Positions 1-20,352 of a DNA stretch of 64,000 bases are shown one piece after another. Numbering within the stretch: the stretch's first letter is position 1; the number at the start of each line of letters is the position of its first letter. Made by a program: the position numbers and the translations under genes. The stretch is from assembly GCA_025998675.1 (NCBI GenBank), contig AP024673.1:2860562-2924561 (forward strand), in the 5' to 3' direction. Source of the DNA: Fimbriimonadales bacterium (GTDB taxonomy: Bacteria > Armatimonadota > Fimbriimonadia > Fimbriimonadales > GBS-DC). The notes beneath the pieces are model-generated. The model was not told where the DNA came from, searched no databases, and saw only the letters and a list, made by a program, of their open reading frames with translations.

Positions 1-1
1 C

Positions 2-2536
2 AACGCGCGGGGGAATGTGATTAGTTGGACGGATCGGTTGGGAAATACCTGGCAGTACGGCTATGTGTCGTCCACGAGCGACGCGCTGAAGTGGTTCCAG
101 GACCCGATGGGGCATCGGTGGACGGTACTGTATTCGCGCGCGGTGGCGGCGATTGGGATTGGCTCAGGCAGCGTGTCCGAGACGGGCAGTGCGCGTTGGG
201 TGGATCCGACGCAAGTGTGGGTAGAGTACGGTTTTGCAGAGGCTTTGGCGGTGCGTATCGCGCAGGGCGGCAACGCGACTTCGGAGCGGCTGACGACGCG
301 GCTGTGGTACAACGGGCAGTATCAGGTGGTCAAGCGTCAGGATACGGCGGGTCTGGTGTGGGAATGGAGTTATGACCCTCAGGGCAACCTGCTCTGGAGC
401 AAGGAGCCGAACGGGGCGATGACGACTTACATTTACTATCAGGGGACAGACCGTGTATGGAAGGTGACGGACGCGCTGGGGCATGTGTGGGAGTATACCT
501 ACACCAGCGGGTATGGGGATGTGAAGAGTGTGAAAGACCCTGAAGGGGGTGTGGTGCAGTATGTGTATGATTACGAGTTGAATGAGCCTGTGTACGGCTT
601 GGTGCGCCAGGTGATAGATGCGATGGGGCGTGCGACGGAGTATCAGTATTACGCAGCGGATGAGGCGAATCTGGCGCGCCGGGGTCAGGTGCGGCGGGTG
701 ATAGTACCTGGCGGATTCTGGCGGGAAATGGATTACAGTGGTCTGGGTTGGCTGGTGTCGCGCACGGTGCAGACAGCCAACGGGAGTGAGACGACGACCT
801 ATACTCATGATGCGTGGGGTCGGTTGCGGGAGATAGACTACCCGCGCAGTGCCGATGTGCGCATGGGCTGGGACGGTGAGAACCGTCGGGTGTGGGTGCA
901 GGACGGTGCAGGTCGGCGCGACTACACCTACGATGCGTGGGGGCGTGTTGTTTTGCAGGAGGGCTGTTGTGGCAGCAGTGAAGGAATAGAGGTTGTGGCG
1001 GTTTCGGCGGAGTACGACACGGCGGGCAGGAAGCGGTTTGAGCGGGAGCGTCGGTCGGATGGGAGTGTCGTGCGCACGGTTGAGTACACCTATGATGCGC
1101 TGGGACGGTTGCAAAGTGTGGGCGATGATCGGGGCGCTGTGGGGTACAGTTATGAGCTGGGCACGGGGCGGCTGCAGCGAGAGGATTACCCGAACGGGAG
1201 TTTTGTGGCGTACACCTACTATGGGACAAGCCATCCGTTGCAGGTTGGTCAAGTATGGAAGGTGGAGCACAAGCGCGCCAATAGTGACAGCTTGTTGATC
1301 GGGTATGAGTACACCTACGACCTGCTGGGTCGGGTGGTGCAAAGCGTGGAGCGTCCGAGTGGGGACACAACGGTTTACACCTACACGCCTGCGGGTCGGT
1401 TGGCAAGCGAAGTGCGCACGGGTCAGGTGGCGTATCGTCGGGAGTACGAGTACAATTCCGACGGTAGTCGGCGTTATGTGGAGCGGGCGGACGCGGTGAA
1501 CGGGTTTCATCAAGACGAGTATGTGTATGATGCGGTGTCGGGTCGTTTGGTGAGCGTGATTGATCGGGCGCCTGAGCCTGATGTGGTGTATAGCTTTAGT
1601 TGGAACCCCGAAGGCACGCTGGCGCGGTGGAGCAATAATCAGCCGAACAGTTATGCGCGTGTGTTTGGGTATGACGAGGAGGGTCGTCTGACGCGGATAG
1701 AGCGGGATTACGGTGACAGAGTGGAGGCAGTGTATGAGTATGGGTACAATAGTGATGGTGTGCAGGTATGGAAGCGGGATGGTCTGGCTCAGCAGGAGTA
1801 TCGGTATGTGTGTCGTATTGGCTGTGGGGGTGTGCCGATGCGGGTGTATAGTCGGGCGATAGGGAGCGAGGGCTGGGATACGCTGGAGGAGTATATGGCA
1901 GGGTTGAGCAGTGTGTGGTATGGTACAGGTGCTGAGAGTGCCCAGGACTATGGGTGGTTAGCGGGGCACTGGTTGAGTGGGCTGACACCGCCGCCTGCAG
2001 GTGTGATGCTGTATCAGGACTGGTTTGGCGTGCGGGTCGGCGGGGAGTTTGAGCCGACAGCTGTGCACAAGCGCGTGCCTGATTATTTGGTAGGCAACCC
2101 TGATCTGCCCGATGGGCGTTTTGCGTTGCTGGGGTTTCAAATTCCTGCTATATGTGCCATTCCTTGCGGTGTGGCTGGTTTGTGTATGGCAGCGGGGCTG
2201 GCTTATCTCGCTGGATGCATGGTGGGATGCCGCGGAAGTAGCGACTACTGGGGATGTGTTGCGACATGCTTGGGGAACATTCCTGGATGGATTCTGGCTC
2301 TTTGCGGGGTTGCGATACTGGCGTGCATACTATGTGTTTTATGGCCTTTTCTACCAAGGATAAACGATGCGCTACAAAAATTGTGTCCTGGATACCCGGG
2401 GATTATTGCCAAATGCATGCGCGAAGCTGGTAAGGACTTGGTAAAATTAGTGGGGTGCATCGCTGAAGAGTGTATGAAAGCTCGCAAGCCACCGATTATT
2501 ATTCCGGGTAGACCGAGCATGGGGGTGGCTTTATGA
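2..2536 (+). CDS. Rhs/YD-repeat protein with cysteine-rich C-terminal tip (5' partial)
   Basis: The reading frame is already open at the window edge, so the true start lies outside; 844 residues are visible. About 600 residues are tandem YD repeats, recognisable by recurring YTYDAWGR-, YEYTYD- and GRL-type motifs. Rhs/WapA proteins use such repeats to build a hollow shell around a toxic tip. A pre-tip segment follows (IGCGGVPMRVYSRAIG to DWFGVRVGG, about 1803-2043). From about 2045 the sequence becomes unrelated to the shell. This tip has some 14 cysteines, hydrophobic stretches and a paired CX3C motif (CMVGC...CVATC). The stop overlaps the next gene by ATGA. The sense strand is unusually rich in G and T compared with the rest of the window. 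A secreted or surface polymorphic toxin is inferred; the activity of the tip is unknown. Confidence 0.85.
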   Translation, partial: NARGNVISWTDRLGNTWQYGYVSSTSDALKWFQDPMGHRWTVLYSRAVAAIGIGSGSVSETGSARWVDPTQVWVEYGFAEALAVRIAQGGNATSERLTTRLWYNGQYQVVKRQDTAGLVWEWSYDPQGNLLWSKEPNGAMTTYIYYQGTDRVWKVTDALGHVWEYTYTSGYGDVKSVKDPEGGVVQYVYDYELNEPVYGLVRQVIDAMGRATEYQYYAADEANLARRGQVRRVIVPGGFWREMDYSGLGWLVSRTVQTANGSETTTYTHDAWGRLREIDYPRSADVRMGWDGENRRVWVQDGAGRRDYTYDAWGRVVLQEGCCGSSEGIEVVAVSAEYDTAGRKRFERERRSDGSVVRTVEYTYDALGRLQSVGDDRGAVGYSYELGTGRLQREDYPNGSFVAYTYYGTSHPLQVGQVWKVEHKRANSDSLLIGYEYTYDLLGRVVQSVERPSGDTTVYTYTPAGRLASEVRTGQVAYRREYEYNSDGSRRYVERADAVNGFHQDEYVYDAVSGRLVSVIDRAPEPDVVYSFSWNPEGTLARWSNNQPNSYARVFGYDEEGRLTRIERDYGDRVEAVYEYGYNSDGVQVWKRDGLAQQEYRYVCRIGCGGVPMRVYSRAIGSEGWDTLEEYMAGLSSVWYGTGAESAQDYGWLAGHWLSGLTPPPAGVMLYQDWFGVRVGGEFEPTAVHKRVPDYLVGNPDLPDGRFALLGFQIPAICAIPCGVAGLCMAAGLAYLAGCMVGCRGSSDYWGCVATCLGNIPGWILALCGVAILACILCVLWPFLPRINDALQKLCPGYPGIIAKCMREAGKDLVKLVGCIAEECMKARKPPIIIPGRPSMGVAL

Positions 2537-2970
2537 CAGAAACGCAGCATCGTATCGAGGCGCGGAAGCTATGCCCGATTCTGGGCTTTGTTGCTGTACT
2601 GTCCGCTCTGGGCGGGACAGCGGTGGTCTGGGATTGGGTTTTTGCCTCTGAGGCAAATAGGGAAGAGCGAATCTGGATAGGGCTGCTATTGACAGCAGTG
2701 CTCTGGAACAGGTCGTGGGAGTTATTAACCGAAACTTTCACGTTATACATGGACTATAGAGAATATTACTTTCCTCTTAGGGTCGTTACTTTCCCAATGT
2801 TATTTCTATGTTTCGTCTGTGCAGGATGTGCACTTTTCTTTTGGCTTTCAGGGGTTACTCCTGCCAAGTTCTTCGTACATTATACTTTTGCTTTTTCATA
2901 TTTGATTTCCGCTTTTGGTACGATGAGTGCATTCATGGCTAAGCGTTCTGTTTCGGATACTTTGCCATAG
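2533..2970 (+). CDS. Small polytopic membrane protein, candidate immunity protein for tip 1
   Basis: The 145-residue product has about four hydrophobic helices (around residues 15-37, 48-62, 82-106 and 112-133) and no family I recognise. Its ATG overlaps the rhs stop codon by four bases (ATGA), so the two genes are translationally coupled. Polymorphic-toxin immunity genes normally sit directly after their toxin in this way. The second half of the gene is clearly more AT-rich than the rhs gene, which suggests separate ancestry. An inner-membrane immunity protein would fit a membrane-active tip, but this is inference from position and topology only. It could also be an unrelated membrane protein. 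Confidence 0.6.
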   Translation: MTETQHRIEARKLCPILGFVAVLSALGGTAVVWDWVFASEANREERIWIGLLLTAVLWNRSWELLTETFTLYMDYREYYFPLRVVTFPMLFLCFVCAGCALFFWLSGVTPAKFFVHYTFAFSYLISAFGTMSAFMAKRSVSDTLP

Positions 2971-3006
2971 AACAGTACCCGACAGAACGACAGCGCGCCA
3001 AGCGCG

Positions 3007-3729
3007 ATGGGATTTCGGGATTGTCAGATAGGGTGTGGCGGTGTACCGATGCGGGTGTATGGGCGCGAGATAGGCGGTGGAACCTGGACGACTGTGGAGG
3101 ATTACCTGCCTGCAGGGAACGCGCTGGGGTATAATGGGAACTGGCGGTATGCGCACAGTGGGGGTACTTTGCTGATGATGACGCAAGCGGGTGAGCCGTG
3201 GGGTTATTATCCGCAGGACAGCAACGGGCTGGCGGTGCAGAGTGCGCCTGCCGAGCCGTGCGCGTGCCCTGTGTTTGCACCGACGAATGTAGCGGTGTGT
3301 TCTCCGCTGGTGGATGGAGGATGTGGAGGTAGTGTGTGTGACGTTTCTCCTGCCACTTTTGGAATTGATATAACTAAATGTCTCGGTGGAAAAAAAGACA
3401 AGAAGAAAACCTATCAGATGTGTGTTGATTTTTGTAAGGTTTTTGCGAATGCTTACTGCAAAGGAGCAGGGTTTGGTATCGATCCACGAGTGGGTAGAAT
3501 CTGCGACCTTATTTCCAAGAAGGGATGTGAAGCCATTTGCAAAGACATTCATGATAGAAAATACTTTACCGACTGTTGGACTCCTTGCCTTGAAACAACC
3601 CAGCCTGGTAGTCCGAAATGCGCCGAATGTTGCAATGAACTATGCAAGGATAAGGAGGGAGGTGATGTGCAAAAGGGAGGTTTAGCTATATGCTACAAAA
3701 GATGCGCCACTGCACCAGAACGTGATTAG
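3007..3729 (+). CDS. Displaced Rhs C-terminal cassette 2 (orphan tip)
   Basis: The 240-residue frame opens directly in the Rhs pre-tip motif (QIGCGGVPMRVYGREIGG), which matches the complete rhs gene at about 1803-1870. It then diverges into a different linker and a cysteine-rich, mostly hydrophilic tip with about 18 cysteines. CX3C pairs are visible (CVDFC; CEAIC...CWTPC). There is no YD-repeat shell, signal peptide or convincing ribosome-binding site. An rhs-like KRDG codon run lies just upstream in another frame (about 3000-3011). This is how displaced orphan tips look in other Rhs loci, where recombination through the conserved pre-tip can place them on the main gene. It may not be translated where it lies. 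Confidence 0.6.
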   Translation: MGFRDCQIGCGGVPMRVYGREIGGGTWTTVEDYLPAGNALGYNGNWRYAHSGGTLLMMTQAGEPWGYYPQDSNGLAVQSAPAEPCACPVFAPTNVAVCSPLVDGGCGGSVCDVSPATFGIDITKCLGGKKDKKKTYQMCVDFCKVFANAYCKGAGFGIDPRVGRICDLISKKGCEAICKDIHDRKYFTDCWTPCLETTQPGSPKCAECCNELCKDKEGGDVQKGGLAICYKRCATAPERD

Positions 3730-3744
3730 AGGGGGTCAGCAGAA

Positions 3745-4329
3745 ATGAAGGGCGACAGAATCGGGCGATGGACAAAGTGGTTGACGATTAGTGGATTAAT
3801 ACTGACGCTGGGAGGTCTGTCCACTATATCTCTCAAAGGTTACCTGTTCCCTAATGACATTGGTTCAGACGTGATGAAATCAATTACTCACATCGGAGGC
3901 GAACCTCTCGGTACACAGCTTAGTCTACCAGTAGATGCTCGACTGGTAGGTCTTTCTATAACCTCCGACGGGCAGGGGCGAGGAAGATGGGATGTGGCTT
4001 ACATTTTCAAGACAGATATAGACCTGAAAGTTTTGAGAGATACTTATCGCAAGAATTTTATCGGCAAAAATGTAAAGTGGATAGTCGACACATCAGATAC
4101 ACTCTCTTTTACGGTTTTTCGTGGTGATTCGACTGGTTCGTGTTCATCACAGGTGATCTACTCTGTGTCTGCTTTTCGAGGTATCTCAGAATCTGAGGGT
4201 GAGGTACTGGGACTGCTCCCGAGAGAGTATCGCGAGAAGGTTTTTATTTACTTTTTGGTAGATGAGCCAACCTTAGATCGGGTAGCTGAAGAAGGAGGCG
4301 GTATAACTTTGCCGATTTTAGTACGTTGA
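3745..4329 (+). CDS. Membrane-anchored protein, candidate immunity protein for tip 2
   Basis: The 194-residue protein has one N-terminal hydrophobic helix (about residues 12-32, after a basic RIGRWTKW start) and a soluble remainder predicted to lie outside the cytoplasm. It starts 15 bases after cassette 2 and has an AGAGGGGGT-like ribosome-binding site. The gene is AT-rich compared with the rest of the window, as expected for an acquired module. I recognise no family. Its place directly after an orphan tip suggests an immunity role, but nothing in the sequence proves this. Confidence 0.5.
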   Translation: MKGDRIGRWTKWLTISGLILTLGGLSTISLKGYLFPNDIGSDVMKSITHIGGEPLGTQLSLPVDARLVGLSITSDGQGRGRWDVAYIFKTDIDLKVLRDTYRKNFIGKNVKWIVDTSDTLSFTVFRGDSTGSCSSQVIYSVSAFRGISESEGEVLGLLPREYREKVFIYFLVDEPTLDRVAEEGGGITLPILVR

Positions 4330-4375
4330 CTCCCCACAGTGTTTCACGAGATGTAGTAGTGCAAATTTGCAACTG

Positions 4376-5131
4376 GTATACGAGTATGGGTACAATAGTG
4401 AGGGTGTGCGGGTATGGAAGCGGGATGGTCTGGCTCAGCAGGAATATCGGTATGTGTGTCGTATTGGCTGTGGGAGTGTGCCGATGCGGGTGTATAGTCG
4501 GGCGATAGGTGGAGAAAGCTGGAACACGCTGGAGGAGTATGTGGCGGGGCTGAGCAGCGTGTGGTACCGAACGGGCGCCGAGAGTGCCTAGGATTATGGG
4601 TGGTTAGCGGGGCATTGGTTGAGTGGGCTGACACCGCCGCCTGCAGGCGCGATGCTGTATCAGGACTGGTTTGGCGTGCGGGTCGGCGGTACTTTTGAAT
4701 CGACCGACGAGTCGGCGTACTTACCAAAGTATCTTGAAGAAGTACGAGATCTGCCATACCTGTATATTGGGGAATCTGAATACGTCCCGATGGGTATTGG
4801 CGTTGGTGCATGTGTTGTTGCCTGCGCATGTGGCGCATTTTGCTTGTATTATCTGCTCTCGTGTATAAGCGATTGCCAGAGGTCGATGAACCCATTTGAG
4901 TGTGCTCGTGTCTGTTTAGAGTCGCTACCTGGATGGGTTCAATTTCTGTGTGGCGCTTGTTTGTCTGCTTGCTTGTTTTGTATCCAGAGGAATCTTTGCC
5001 GTCCGTCGGTCATAGTAGACTGCACCTTGCACTGCCTTGGAAGAGGATTGATCGGTTATTGTGTCTTCGGCAAGTGCGTGTGCCTTCCAATACGTTTCTT
5101 CCCTCGCCCTATCCCTAAACCGATTCTTTAG
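4376..5131 (+). pseudogene. Displaced Rhs C-terminal cassette 3, interrupted by in-frame TAG
   Basis: From about 4382 to 4690 the DNA matches the complete rhs gene at 1736-2044 with a constant offset of 2646 bases and no indel. One codon that is CAG (Gln) in the main gene is TAG here (4589-4591), between AESA and DYGW. Reading past it gives a tip of about 140 residues with about 18 cysteines. That tip aligns with tip 1: both contain CX3C, eight residues, CX3C, then a PGW, all at the same spacing. A short downstream frame could start inside the fragment (4619). The cassette could become functional by recombination with the main gene upstream or downstream of the stop, or by suppression. As it stands it is an untranslated reserve or a decaying copy. 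Confidence 0.7.
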
Positions 5132-5142
5132 GAGGTAACAGC

Positions 5143-5697
5143 ATGCATCAGCAGATACAACTTGGGCAGTTCGCACAGCTTACGATTGATGTCCCCAAGC
5201 CTCTGAAACCGATGCGCGCGAAAGAACGAGCGGTTCACGCGCTTTCACCAGAGGTTCGTCATTGCTGGTATTCGCTACGGGGAGGATGGGTAAGTACAAA
5301 CGCCTACCTTATTCTCGACTGGCGACTTCTGAACGTATCCGACGAAGCCGAGGCGCTAAGACACACCGTTCACTACCGACCCGGAATATGGCGATATCTG
5401 GAACAGACTCAAGTCGCAGATGAAACATATCCTTTCGCGAGGGTGGAGCTGGGTGGTACGGCAGGCATCTGTTTGCAGAGGGGGATAAGATTCAGCAACG
5501 GAGTGACAGAATTTGTTCACAAGCGCGCGGACTTGATAACACTCAATAACGAGTTCTCTATTCACCTTTATGTGGAGGTAATCGGACTGGTCGGTCTTTT
5601 TGACCGTCTCTTGCTGAGGGGTAAACAATACCGTCTGGTTCAGGACGAGCTGGAGCGGGTGTTGTCTTCAATACTCCGCAGCTGGATATGGCTGTGA
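5143..5697 (+). CDS. Hypothetical soluble protein, candidate immunity protein for tip 3
   Basis: The 184-residue product has no signal peptide or obvious membrane helix, apart from a mildly hydrophobic stretch near residues 150-162. A strong AGGAGGT ribosome-binding site ends just before the ATG (about 5131-5137). It begins 11 bases after the third Rhs cassette, the same toxin-then-small-gene layout seen twice upstream. I see no known family. Tips 1 and 3 look related, yet this protein does not resemble the four-helix protein after tip 1. Either immunity has been replaced or one of the two genes has another function. Confidence 0.55.
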   Translation: MHQQIQLGQFAQLTIDVPKPLKPMRAKERAVHALSPEVRHCWYSLRGGWVSTNAYLILDWRLLNVSDEAEALRHTVHYRPGIWRYLEQTQVADETYPFARVELGGTAGICLQRGIRFSNGVTEFVHKRADLITLNNEFSIHLYVEVIGLVGLFDRLLLRGKQYRLVQDELERVLSSILRSWIWL

Positions 5698-5842
5698 ACT
5701 GAGCGGGTACACTCCTTTATTGCTATGGCAAAGACGGCGTCCACACAGGAGAAGGCGCACCAACGCGCCCGCGCGGGGAGGGCGGAACCGCCCCCGTGGG
5801 TGGCGATGCCAGAGGGGGAGTAACGCATTCGCGTCGCACACA

Positions 5843-5953
5843 CGGTTCCTCTCGCCCGCCGCGCGGGAGAGGGGCTGGGGGTGAGGGCAACAGGGCGCGT
5901 GGCTCCAGCTGCAGACGCACGGCAATTACGAAGTCTGACGCGCTGATTGGTAT
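5843..5953. repeat. Dispersed element, family B (right end)
   Basis: This copy contains a GC-rich hairpin of the CTCTC...CGCGCGGGAGAGG type followed by a GGGGGTGAGGGCAA segment. It ends with GCAATTACGAAGTCTGACGCGC and a terminal ATTGGTAT at 5946-5953 (read as two pieces). Closely related copies lie at 25473-25935, and ends of the same type occur at 15446-15482 and 20405-20572. The end overlaps the last codons of the nuclease gene at 5926. The rest of 5698-5842 holds GC-rich inverted segments but no gene. Confidence 0.7.
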
Positions 5954-7023
5954 CCGCCTGACGCCACAACGCCCCGCAGGTCGCCGACACGTTCCAGGGC
6001 GGAGCGCAGCACGGCTTCGCTGGGCGCGCGGCTACGCAAGTGCTGCTCGCACATACGGAACGGGTACAGCAGGCGGTCGTAGCGCGGGTCCGGCAGGCTG
6101 ATGGGGCGCGTCTCCTGCAGCAGCCATGCCGAGATTTTATTCGCCCATTCGCGCGTGTCGTCGGGCGTGGTTAACACGGGCGTCTCCACCCGCACGAGCC
6201 CGTAGGTGGGCGAGGCGCCCTCCTGCCAGCGCAGGCGCAGATACCAGCTGTAGACCTCGCTCTGACCTTCGCGCACGGGGCGAAACACGCTGCTGCGGTA
6301 GCCCGCCTGCATACTCAGCACCTTCAGCATCCAGTTAATCTCCAGATAGCTGGTGCGATGCGACTTGGAGACGCCCACCACATTCACCAGCCGTCGCTGC
6401 TGCAACGCGCTCATCAGGTCGGCAATCGAGCCGTCCACCAGCAACCAGTCTGTTGAGTCGGGCGTCTGCTGCTCAATCCACTGCAGGGCAAGTTTGCGCT
6501 CCAGCTGGTCGCGCACACGCGCCACCGTCGCCCCCGCGCGCACCAGCATCGTCTGGAAGGAGGTCTTCTCCAGCTCGCGCGCTTCCAGCGAGTCGTGAAC
6601 CGTGACGCCTGCCTGCTCAAACAGGCGCGCGTCGAACGCCTTCAGGGGCAGGTAGAGCGCCTCCTGCGACTCGGTGAGTTCCGCAACGGGATGCAACTCG
6701 CGATTGCGCCGCTCCAGCACCATCGCCGCCACATAGCCGTACACAACGGGCATGACGCCGTACCGGGTCTGCTGGTAATAGAGCAGTTGCGAGTGCTGGA
6801 TGCCGTCGATGAAATGTGTGAATTGCGTCTCTTCGTCGCTTCGGGGCACTTCGAACACGCCAAACTCTTTCTGGTTCGGTTCGGGCACGAGCAGGGCGCG
6901 ACTGAAGCCCCCCTCCTCTTCGGGCGGTTCAATCGTGTCTTCCGAGCTAATCTGGCGCACGACCTGCACGCCTTCGGGGTGCGCCTGCAGAAACTCCGCG
7001 ACTTTTCTCAGAAAAGGTGTCAT
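5926..7023 (-). CDS. NurA domain nuclease-like protein
   Basis: The 365-residue protein resembles the NurA family, Mn2+-dependent 5'-3' nucleases that usually work with HerA in double-strand break end processing. Visible motifs are FIDGIQHS (the first acidic motif), DWLLVDGSI in mid-protein and VGVSKSHRT after it, in the family order. No herA lies in this window. I chose ATG 7023 because the residues upstream of MTPFLRK look untranslated and the divergent aldo/keto reductase promoter lies there. The last nine codons and the TAA stop fall inside a family B repeat end, so the natural C-terminus has probably been replaced. Confidence in nuclease activity is moderate. Confidence 0.65.
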   Translation of the reverse strand: MTPFLRKVAEFLQAHPEGVQVVRQISSEDTIEPPEEEGGFSRALLVPEPNQKEFGVFEVPRSDEETQFTHFIDGIQHSQLLYYQQTRYGVMPVVYGYVAAMVLERRNRELHPVAELTESQEALYLPLKAFDARLFEQAGVTVHDSLEARELEKTSFQTMLVRAGATVARVRDQLERKLALQWIEQQTPDSTDWLLVDGSIADLMSALQQRRLVNVVGVSKSHRTSYLEINWMLKVLSMQAGYRSSVFRPVREGQSEVYSWYLRLRWQEGASPTYGLVRVETPVLTTPDDTREWANKISAWLLQETRPISLPDPRYDRLLYPFRMCEQHLRSRAPSEAVLRSALERVGDLRGVVASGGYQSARQTS

Positions 7024-7125
7024 AGCAGTAGACAAGATTCGACTATTTCCCCGCGACTCCTGCTGATAGAGCAGGAAAATCGTCGCGGGCGTCGAAACGC
7101 GCGGCGTACAAGGAGGGCTATACGC

Positions 7126-8097
7126 ATGCACTATACGCATTTAGGTCGTTCGGGTCTGCTGGTGAGCCGCCTGTGCCTGGGCACGATGAACTTCGGTCCC
7201 AACACCAGCGAGGAAGACTCTTATCGGATTATGGATCGCGCCCTTGAGCTGGGCATCAACTTTTTTGACACGGCGAATGTGTACGGCTGGGTCAAGGGCG
7301 AGGGGATTACGGAGCAGATTATCGGGCGCTGGTGGGCGCAGGGCGGCGGGCGACGCGAGAAGGTGGTGATTGCCACCAAAGTGTACGGCGTGATGGGCGA
7401 CTGGCCCAACGAATCACGCCTGTCCGCGTTGCACATCAAACGCGCCTGCGAAGACAGCCTGCGCCGCCTCAAAACCGACTACATCGACCTGTATCAGATG
7501 CACCATGTCGACCGCGAGTGCCCGTGGGAGGAAATCTGGCAGGCGATGGAGCAACTCTACCGCGAGGGCAAGATTCTCTATGTCGGCAGCAGCAACTTCG
7601 CGGGCTGGCACATCACGCAGGCGCAGGAGAGTGCCAAACAGCGACACTTTATGGGGCTGGTCTCCGAGCAGAGCCTGTATAACCTGAACGCGCGCATGAT
7701 CGAGCTGGAGGTCATCCCCGCCTGTCTACACTACGGCGTGGGCATTATCCCGTGGAGTCCGCTGGCGAGCGGGCTGCTGGGCGGCATTCTCAAGGGCGTG
7801 CAGGAAGGACGCCGCGCCTCCGAAGGCGTGCAGCAGCGGCTGGAGCAGTATCGCGACCGCATCGAGCGCTACGAGGCGTTCTGCGAGGCGCTGGGCGAGG
7901 AGCCGGCGAATGTCGCGCTCGCGTGGCTGCTGCACCAGCCTGCCGTCACCGCGCCGATTATCGGACCGCGCACGCTGGAGCAGCTGGAACGCAGTATGCG
8001 CGCGCTGGAAATCCGCCTCGACGAGGACGCCCTCAAACGACTCGACGAAATCTTCCCCGGTCCGGGCGGTCCCGCGCCAGAAGCCTATGCGTGGTGA
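7126..8097 (+). CDS. Aldo/keto reductase
   Basis: This is a 323-residue NAD(P)H-dependent oxidoreductase of the TIM-barrel AKR superfamily, YghZ/Tas-like, acting on aldehydes or ketones in the cytoplasm. The conserved parts are visible: MHYTHLGRSGLLVSRLCLG start, GINFFDTANVYG with the catalytic Asp and Tyr, VVIATKVYG with the catalytic Lys, and YQMHHVD with the His. The C-terminal IGPRTLEQL motif binds the NADP phosphate. The ATG at 7126 follows an AAGGAGGG ribosome-binding site (7110-7117). It is divergent from the NurA-like gene and appears to be transcribed alone. The physiological substrate cannot be told from sequence. Confidence 0.92.
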   Translation: MHYTHLGRSGLLVSRLCLGTMNFGPNTSEEDSYRIMDRALELGINFFDTANVYGWVKGEGITEQIIGRWWAQGGGRREKVVIATKVYGVMGDWPNESRLSALHIKRACEDSLRRLKTDYIDLYQMHHVDRECPWEEIWQAMEQLYREGKILYVGSSNFAGWHITQAQESAKQRHFMGLVSEQSLYNLNARMIELEVIPACLHYGVGIIPWSPLASGLLGGILKGVQEGRRASEGVQQRLEQYRDRIERYEAFCEALGEEPANVALAWLLHQPAVTAPIIGPRTLEQLERSMRALEIRLDEDALKRLDEIFPGPGGPAPEAYAW

Positions 8098-18747: not shown

Positions 18748-20352
18748 ATGAAGCGATATCTGGGCTTTACCCTCGCGCTTGCACTGGCAAGCGGCATGGC
18801 GATGGCGCAACCGCGCGTGGTCATCAACGAATTCGCCTACGACGACACGGGCGCCGACAACCTCGAGTTTATCGAACTCTACAACGCGGACACAGAAGCT
18901 GTAAATATTACCGGCTGGATTGTCGACTGCGGCGACCAGCTCACGGGCGACAACAATCGCGACTTCGTGATTGGCGACCTCGACGGCGACGGCGTCGCGG
19001 ACACAACCGTCGTTCTTCAACCAGGTCAATACTATGTCATCGGCACGGCTGCACTGAACACCCGCTGCGGGGGCTGTGTAAACCAGACTTTCGATCCCGG
19101 AACGGCTGGCGTGATCGAGAACGACAACGAGTGGATTGCGCTGATTATTCCGGGCGAACCGCGAACGGTGGTCGACGCCGTAGTGTACGAGGCGAACCGA
19201 TCGGCGCTGGCGAACTGGGTTCCTGCGGACATTATTCCCCAGCTGGGCGGCGGCTTGTGGGGCAACTACCAGAGCCTGGAAGCGGGCACGACCACAGACG
19301 ACGCCTTTCTGAGCATTGGACGCTGGCGCGACGGGCTGGACACGAATGTGAACGGGCGCGATTTCGGGCACTTTCGCCCCACACCGGGCGCGTCGAACGA
19401 CCTGCCCGCATTGCAAGCTCGCCTCTGCCTGAATTTTGACGGCTACAACCTCGGAGATATACCCGACGAGTTCACTGGCTCGTACCGTGAGCCGCGCGTG
19501 ATTGACCCCACGCAGGCGGACAACACGGTTGCCACCGCCTTCAACCCGAACGCGCTGCCTGCCTCCCCGCAGGGCGGCAATGCGATGATGGTGCGCGACT
19601 GGGCAGGCGGCGGCAATGTCGCTGTGTCCAACTTCGTCTACGAAGGCAACGCCGCCTACGACCTGTATGTCTACATCAACCCCAACACCAGTGAATTTAC
19701 CGCAGGTCAGGTGGAAACATGGATGATTGGGATTGGCGGCGCGGAGTCGGTGCATAACCATCCGCTGCTCCTCGAAAGCGCCACGACGGGCAGCGCGAAC
19801 GGCATGACGGGCGTCGCGTGGGCGTTCCGCCGATCCGTCTCAGCGACGACCAATCCTGTGCATCCTACGGAGACCAAGCTCCGCTTGGTGGACGCAGGCA
19901 AAGGCGGCGACAGCCGCATCAGCGGACCGAACAACACATGGACCATCTACGGCGAGATTGACCTCTCGGGCTACAGCGCGGGCTGGTATCGCCTCCGCCT
20001 GGAGGTCGCCAACGGCGCTGTGAAGGGCTATTTCTACGGCGACCCGAACAACCCGATTGTCGTCTGCGGTACGACCGAAACGGGCTGGGTGGGCGGCTTC
20101 TACATCGGCTACCGTGAGACGCTGGGCAACAACGCCGCGCGTATCAACCCGGTGCGCATCGACGACGCGTGCTTCTATGTGCCTGTGGAAGGCGATGTGG
20201 ACGGCAACGGCTGCGTCGATGACGCCGATCTGCTGCAGGTGCTGTTTGCGTTCGGGTCGTCCGACTGCTCGCCTGCGGATGTGAACGGCGACAGCGTGGT
20301 CGACGACGCGGACCTGCTGGTGGTGCTGTTCAACTTCGGCGGCGGCTGCTAA
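18748..20352 (+). CDS. Secreted lamin-tail domain protein with dockerin-like C-terminus
   Basis: The 534-residue protein has a signal peptide (MKRYLGFTLALALASGMAMA). Residues 22-160 form a lamin-tail (LTD) domain: VVINEFAYDDTGADNLEFIEL, ITGWIVDC, and PGQYYVIG. A beta-rich middle (about 230-480) may be a concanavalin-like sandwich. The C-terminus carries two calcium-binding dockerin-type repeats, GDVDGNGCVDDADLLQVLF and DVNGDSVVDDADLLVVLFNF. The protein encoded at 56496 ends with almost the same module. Dockerins bind cohesins in cellulosomes, but no cohesin is in the window, so the binding partner is unknown. A surface or extracellular location is inferred. Confidence 0.82.
   Translation: MKRYLGFTLALALASGMAMAQPRVVINEFAYDDTGADNLEFIELYNADTEAVNITGWIVDCGDQLTGDNNRDFVIGDLDGDGVADTTVVLQPGQYYVIGTAALNTRCGGCVNQTFDPGTAGVIENDNEWIALIIPGEPRTVVDAVVYEANRSALANWVPADIIPQLGGGLWGNYQSLEAGTTTDDAFLSIGRWRDGLDTNVNGRDFGHFRPTPGASNDLPALQARLCLNFDGYNLGDIPDEFTGSYREPRVIDPTQADNTVATAFNPNALPASPQGGNAMMVRDWAGGGNVAVSNFVYEGNAAYDLYVYINPNTSEFTAGQVETWMIGIGGAESVHNHPLLLESATTGSANGMTGVAWAFRRSVSATTNPVHPTETKLRLVDAGKGGDSRISGPNNTWTIYGEIDLSGYSAGWYRLRLEVANGAVKGYFYGDPNNPIVVCGTTETGWVGGFYIGYRETLGNNAARINPVRIDDACFYVPVEGDVDGNGCVDDADLLQVLFAFGSSDCSPADVNGDSVVDDADLLVVLFNFGGGC

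Follow-up and report, generated by a model that had tools for sequence, protein, structure and literature searches.

An array of Rhs-type cassettes in the genome of a Fimbriimonadales bacterium (G000) lacks the usual Rhs core in front of its variable C-terminal tips, and instead carries a short, conserved pre-tip with a CxxxC motif, followed by cysteine-rich tips. The array occupies positions 1-5697 of a window of 64,000 nucleotides (2,860,562-2,924,561 of the single-contig, 2.99 Mb genome), and all of its parts run in the same direction (+; Table 1). A YD-repeat (Rhs) shell joined to a first tip is followed by two displaced modules, each with its own pre-tip and tip, and a small gene (the follower) lies behind each of the three tips. 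The locus is probably a polymorphic toxin locus of the Rhs type, in which silent toxin/immunity cassettes form a reservoir.

An original prediction, made from the letters of the window, had described three pre-tip copies in one direction, a different small gene behind each tip and attachment of the first copy alone to the shell. This layout is borne out by our analysis: copy 1 is the sole copy in frame with the YD shell (open reading frame 2-2536). A feature absent from that description is an in-frame TAG at 4589-4591, within the third module (about 4373-5131).

The pre-tip and its distribution

The three pre-tip copies align as repeats at about 1730-2050, 3022-3320 and 4376-4690. In the whole G000 genome, the pre-tip matches at these three places only (E 6.6e-73, 1.8e-65 and 2.6e-9); therefore, the array is not a product of chance. 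Copies 1 and 3 share 91% identity across 300 nt, and the longest exact tracts between them measure 39 nt. For copy 2, the alignment covers 83 nt at 72-76% identity.

Its named relatives, Bacterium HR15 and Fimbriimonadales bacterium KatS3mg016, place the host in f1, an uncultured family of the order Fimbriimonadales. This group is known from hot springs and has no cultured members. We searched 18 genomes of the family and 43 other Fimbriimonadales genomes with a 107-aa pre-tip query, and 291 genomes of the phylum with a profile. The pre-tip is present in 11 of the 18 family genomes, where it occurs in tandem arrays (16 copies in genome G014, 8 in G004 and 7 in G006), and in none of the 43 others. 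Beyond the family, the profile added nothing more than weak YD matches and a single contig of genome G184 (L094, G184:C21; 9.1 kb). This contig is nearly identical to G004 and is probably a contaminant from a relative of G004. It contains an identical tip and follower twice, once joined to a shell and once displaced, with the identity starting inside the pre-tip; this could be a duplication or a misassembly, and we do not use it as proof. No pre-tip was found in plasmid records.

The CxxxC motif is invariant across the genera aligned. The pre-tip precedes about 23 unrelated tip families, an approximate number in that some pre-tip connector was probably left on a few tips. We regard it as virtually certain that the array and the pre-tip family are real.

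The complete shell-tip gene (L036:9060-12536) encodes a protein of 1158 aa (P0006). Its hydrophobic N-terminus, which ends in ...APAVASA, resembles a Sec-type signal peptide as read from the sequence rather than called by a predictor. The YD-repeat shell was confirmed by matches to PF05593 (E 1.3e-30, and 2.1e-30 in the full protein) and TIGR01643. Compared with other shell-joined proteins, the window shell is 53-92% identical per 50-aa bin to about residue 950, and the similarity collapses beyond this point. This combination of a conserved body and a variable tip is characteristic of Rhs polymorphic toxins, as are orphan modules without a translation start and exchange between genomes, both of which we also found. 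A gene for a sigma-70-like factor lies directly upstream of the shell (L036:8483-8959) and occurs in the same place in genome G016. It might regulate the array.

Absence of the Rhs core

Known Rhs tips are delimited by a PxxxxDPxGL sequence, and an aspartyl protease situated within the C-terminal plug sets them free (PMC3150448, PMC8636562). Here, an Rhs core with PxxxxDPxG and aspartyl protease does not precede the tip. The Rhs core model TIGR03696 has no match in the three shells scanned, including that of the window, and the RWYDPxxGRF motif is absent from 39 of 39 modules (a single chance match at a tip end was set aside). Elsewhere in the G000 genome, TIGR03696 matches 12 times, with no match listed at the window array, and several of these matches belong to tandem arrays of displaced tips with a normal boundary. 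Thus, the missing boundary, which had been noticed by eye, is also evident from profiles. Canonical Rhs core arrays, several with displaced tips, occur at G000:C1:1340154-1344498, 1430323-1436208 and 1861024-1864829 (L089, L090 and L091), and Rhs core matches are found in 28 of the 31 genomes searched, with up to 30 per genome.

Features of other delivery systems are also missing. A Pfam scan of the full shell protein found no PAAR domain, and Hcp of the type VI secretion system (T6SS) was not found in the G000 genome. The two-partner haemagglutinin body and the VENN pretoxin domain of CdiA are likewise missing from the full protein, which matches only RHS_repeat and, below threshold, DUF6531.

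Given that the layout is that of known orphan cassettes, what is new here is not tip switching. Rather, it is the CxxxC pre-tip in place of the boundary formed by the Rhs core and aspartyl protease, together with the class of cysteine-rich tips.

Cysteine-rich tips

Cysteine makes up 8.1% on average of the 39 tips behind the pre-tip, versus 1.2% in 33 canonical tips from the family and the order, most of which come from these very genomes (p 2e-12). Within G000, the respective values are 11.0% and 0.6%. The number of cysteines is even in 33 of the 39 tips and, with one representative taken per tip family, in 19 of 23 (p 0.0013); pairing of nearly all cysteines would give such counts. The G000 genome encodes a VKOR-type disulfide-forming enzyme. 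Given the cysteine excess, the even counts, this enzyme and the absence of Hcp, it is reasonably likely that the tips are disulfide-bonded and act outside the cytoplasm. Alternatively, the cysteines could bind metal, as in zinc ribbons or knuckles, with the tips acting in the cytoplasm of the target cell. Some CxxC spacings and the even counts, which metal sites also favor, are consistent with this idea. However, we consider it unlikely, since CxxxC motifs in hydrophobic helices and tips resembling phospholipase A2 (PLA2), whose relatives are disulfide-bonded, fit disulfides better, VKOR is present and the canonical tips of the same genomes are poor in cysteine.

The PLA2-like tips number four (L043, L053, L058 and L065), and none of them is a window tip. 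Two PLA2 motifs, the WCGxGHPP calcium loop and the catalytic DxLDxCCxxHDxC[YF], are invariant in their alignment. A profile search of the PDB gave an E-value of 0.0015, and the Pfam match is below the cut-off. Two displaced tips, at L044:918-1970 (-) and L045:8494-9228 (-), contain an HExxH metallopeptidase motif (TIVHEMAH) and have related followers. A PDB search gave no match, and the L044 copy has no Pfam match.

Profile searches of the three window tips, the three proteins encoded behind them (P0003-P0005) and the pre-tip gave no Pfam or NCBIfam match above cut-off. A PDB search found no match for tip 1 and nothing convincing for the window tips and followers. These results are in line with the earlier suggestion that the cysteine-rich tips and the pre-tip are unlike described ones. 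Bacteriocins resembling halocin C8 were considered as candidates for tips 1 and 3, but NCBIfam gave no such match.

We consider it quite likely that the tips are toxins and the followers their immunity proteins. The variable C-termini could instead be surface domains for adhesion or recognition, with the follower acting as a chaperone or anchor, given that adhesins are also typically cysteine-rich, secreted and highly variable and that none of the window tips has a match among toxin families. This is very improbable, however, in that several tips in the same slot resemble cell-damaging enzymes (PLA2 and HExxH metallopeptidases), and the follower differs with each tip, such that there is no common chaperone.

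Tips 1 and 3 have two parts. A hydrophobic hairpin of ~65 residues with conserved cysteines is common to these tips, the G004 homologue of tip 1, a protein of G014 and a protein of G111, a genome from another family of the phylum (shuffle z 8-27). The ends that follow it are mutually unrelated (z below 2.3), except for those of tip 1 and its G004 homologue. In G111 (L119), the hairpin lies behind an apparently ordinary Rhs core end, while in G014 it is part of a 571-aa YD protein (L045, reverse complement 514-2226) with a third kind of pre-tip. Judged by these occurrences behind other boundaries, the hairpin moves between shell types. It probably serves in entry or membrane insertion, with the terminal end carrying the specificity.

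Tips and followers travel together and change position

We compared 44 modules all against all, using connector-trimmed tips and 20,000 permutations. There are 15 homologous pairs of followers, and the tips are homologous in all 15. Fourteen of the pairs were recognized by the same test, versus a mean of 0.45 and a maximum of 6 in the 20,000 permutations. The fifteenth consists of tip 2 and P0004 with their G004 counterparts, whose tips are 63% identical. In addition, P0003 is weakly similar to the gene behind the tip-1 homologue in G004 (z 5.3). The PLA2-like tips occur together with beta-propeller followers in G014, G016 and G017, and a tip that is 81% identical over 183 residues is accompanied by a 94-aa follower in both G014 and G006. 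Among 18 relatives, of which 11 are members of the genus and 7 represent other families within the order, we found no downstream gene conserved without its tip.

The modules also differ in position between genomes. Tip 1 is joined to the shell in G000, whereas its 66% identical G004 homologue is displaced and comes after the tip 2 and P0004 homologues, i.e., in reversed order. A tip joined to a shell of at least 220 aa in G014 is displaced in G006 (L045/L050), and a PLA2-like tip is shell-joined in G014 and displaced in G016 (L043/L053). At the syntenic locus in G016, the sigma-factor gene again lies upstream and part of the shell signal peptide remains; behind them are a PLA2-like tip and another tip, neither of which is a window tip. 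Thus, the relatives share no uniform layout, and these changes of position together with the co-travel of tips and followers lend comparative support to toxin-tip switching, as originally proposed. On this basis, it is very likely that tips and followers form modules that exchange.

The displaced modules do not appear to be merely dead. A ribosome-binding run of at least 5 nt precedes 26 of 39 followers versus 1 of 20 displaced tips, a comparison with a mild bias, because more start codons were allowed for followers. The pN/pS ratios are 0.22-0.34 for tips, including a pair displaced in both genomes, and 0.53-0.58 for followers, with synonymous sites saturated in some pairs; the low values for tips indicate that displaced tips are constrained. 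Although many displaced modules are truncated or interrupted by stop codons, as is the third window module, it is therefore very improbable that the locus is an ordinary Rhs array with a decayed pre-tip, whose cassettes are dying canonical fragments without their own function: the pre-tip is conserved with its invariant CxxxC, the core is absent from every module, displaced tips are under purifying selection and followers retain their ribosome-binding sites.

A model for the array

Under our favored interpretation as a toxin locus with silent cassettes, the shell would be exported by Sec, consistent with the signal peptide and the lack of Hcp. The last YD hairpins of the shell would have become the CxxxC-bearing pre-tip, taking the place of the Rhs core, including the plug and the self-cleaving aspartyl protease. 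This pre-tip would carry a cysteine-rich toxin whose disulfides form outside the cytoplasm and whose target could be the envelope of neighboring cells. In tips 1 and 3, the common hairpin would probably insert into or cross a membrane, while the unrelated ends would give specificity. The gene behind each tip would encode the cognate immunity protein. Displaced tips would not be made as secreted proteins, although their immunity genes could be expressed, and recombination between pre-tips would transfer a tip and its immunity gene jointly to the shell.

How the tip is released is more speculative. A tip located outside the shell and released without the usual protease is a tentative idea. It is similarly conjectural that these proteins represent a second architecture of YD toxins, in which the self-cleaving plug was lost in favor of a redox-type pre-tip. 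The tip would then fold outside as a disulfide-locked surface domain, rather than being threaded unfolded and cut inside a closed shell, and the envelope-targeting tips (PLA2, or membrane hairpins with exchangeable ends) would be interchangeable.

Several points weigh against our interpretation. The roles of toxin and immunity protein are both assigned from sequence. No known domain was recognized in tips 1-3, and structure modelling of tips 1 and 2 gave results that are mediocre (mean predicted local distance difference test score, pLDDT, of 69) and matched no fold. Followers are membrane-associated in 23 of 39 cases versus 21 of 33 in canonical arrays; given that there is no excess, the location of the immunity proteins is neutral and does not support action at the envelope. 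If the group is thermophilic, disulfides in the cytoplasm are conceivable. Tips 1 and 3 share the hairpin, yet their followers are unrelated (z 0.7), such that the two-part interpretation is needed; a common hairpin with differing ends would explain this observation. The G004 contig starts inside the pre-tip of tip 2, so attachment of this tip to a shell in G004 is not visible. Finally, we observed no instance of exchange among strains of a single species.

Relationship to known systems

Cassette organization and switching are established for contact-dependent growth inhibition (CDI) and Rhs systems (PMC3150448, PMC3482391). Like the orphan rhs-CT/rhsI modules (Poole et al. 2011, PMC3150448) and polymorphic toxin cassettes (Zhang et al. 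2012, PMC3482391), the array has a conserved shell, a variable tip, a gene behind the tip and downstream displaced modules without start signals that interchange between genomes. However, Rhs orphan modules have the PxxxxDPxGL boundary (PMC3150448), in contrast to the core-less CxxxC pre-tip and the cysteine-rich, apparently disulfide-type tips found here. The canonical arrays L089 and L091 of G000 also consist of tandem displaced sets of pre-tip, tip and follower, but they retain the RWYDPxxGRF...PxxxxDPxG sequence and have the cysteine-poor tips described above.

Photorhabdus Rhs1 (PMC8636562) and other T6SS Rhs effectors share the YD-repeat shell and variable toxin tip; by contrast, the window protein has neither PAAR nor an aspartyl-protease plug but a putative signal peptide, and the genome has no Hcp. 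Bacterial teneurin-like proteins resemble the array in their YD shell, variable C-terminal toxin and downstream immunity gene (PMC13018210). In the solved example, a disulfide joins the toxin and the plug, and the Rhs core cleavage site is kept (PMC13018210), whereas the window shell has none. The four PLA2-like tips share motifs with secreted phospholipase A2 (PF00068; PDB 3v9m), but are fused to a YD shell and fall below the Pfam cut-off.

In the open-access literature, we found neither such arrays in this phylum nor a cysteine-rich class of Rhs tips, which is weak evidence of novelty. The structurally studied Rhs toxins named here free their tip via the core aspartyl protease. A core-less family of arrays beside ordinary Rhs arrays in the same genomes thus offers a natural comparison for how and why tips are released. 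The arrays also point to a possible class of interbacterial toxins that are rich in disulfides, fall into many unnamed families and are paired with immunity genes.

Table 1 Features of the array in the window (coordinates in nucleotides of the window; boundaries of the pre-tips are approximate)
Feature	Position	Strand	Evidence or remarks
YD-repeat (Rhs) shell	2..1729, gene start 940 bases left of the window	+	PF05593 match, hydrophobic N-terminus
Pre-tip copy 1 (YEYGYNSDG...CRIGCGGVPMRVY...), joined to shell	1730..2050	+	Repeat D1; profile E 1.6e-45
Tip 1 part a, cysteine-rich hydrophobic hairpin	2141..2341	+	Common to tip 3 and to tips of G004, G014 and G111, shuffle z 8-27
Tip 1 part b, end of the tip, which probably confers specificity or toxicity	2342..2536	+	Among hairpin-tip ends, relative only in the G004 homologue
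P0003, probable immunity gene 1, membrane protein	2533..2970	+	ATGA 4-base overlap with tip 1 reading frame, translational coupling
Displaced pre-tip copy 2	3007..3320	+	No signal peptide; weak ribosome-binding site
Tip 2, soluble and predicted to be helical, with about 17-20 Cys	3321..3729	+	Homologue with 63% identity in G004
P0004, probable immunity gene 2, with a hydrophobic segment at the N-terminus	3745..4329	+	46% identical homologue behind tip-2 homologue in G004
Displaced pre-tip copy 3, interrupted by TAG 4589-4591	4373..4690	+	Shares 300 nt with copy 1 at 91% identity
Tip 3 part a, hairpin as in tip 1	4790..4987	+	z 12.2 versus tip 1
Tip 3 part b, end of the tip, with no relation to the end of tip 1	4988..5131	+	z 1.4
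P0005, probable immunity gene 3	5143..5697	+	Strong ribosome-binding site AGGAGGT; no relative found

Other features of the window

A search of Rfam gave no match in the window. Directly behind the array, on the opposite strand, a protein encoded at 5926-7140 (-) has a NurA-domain match with an E-value of 1.1e-4, just above the Pfam cut-off. A short coding repeat at 20191-20350 (D.[ND]G[ND]..VDDADLL..LF.FG) appears dockerin-like by eye, and its DNA matches several of the loci in relatives.

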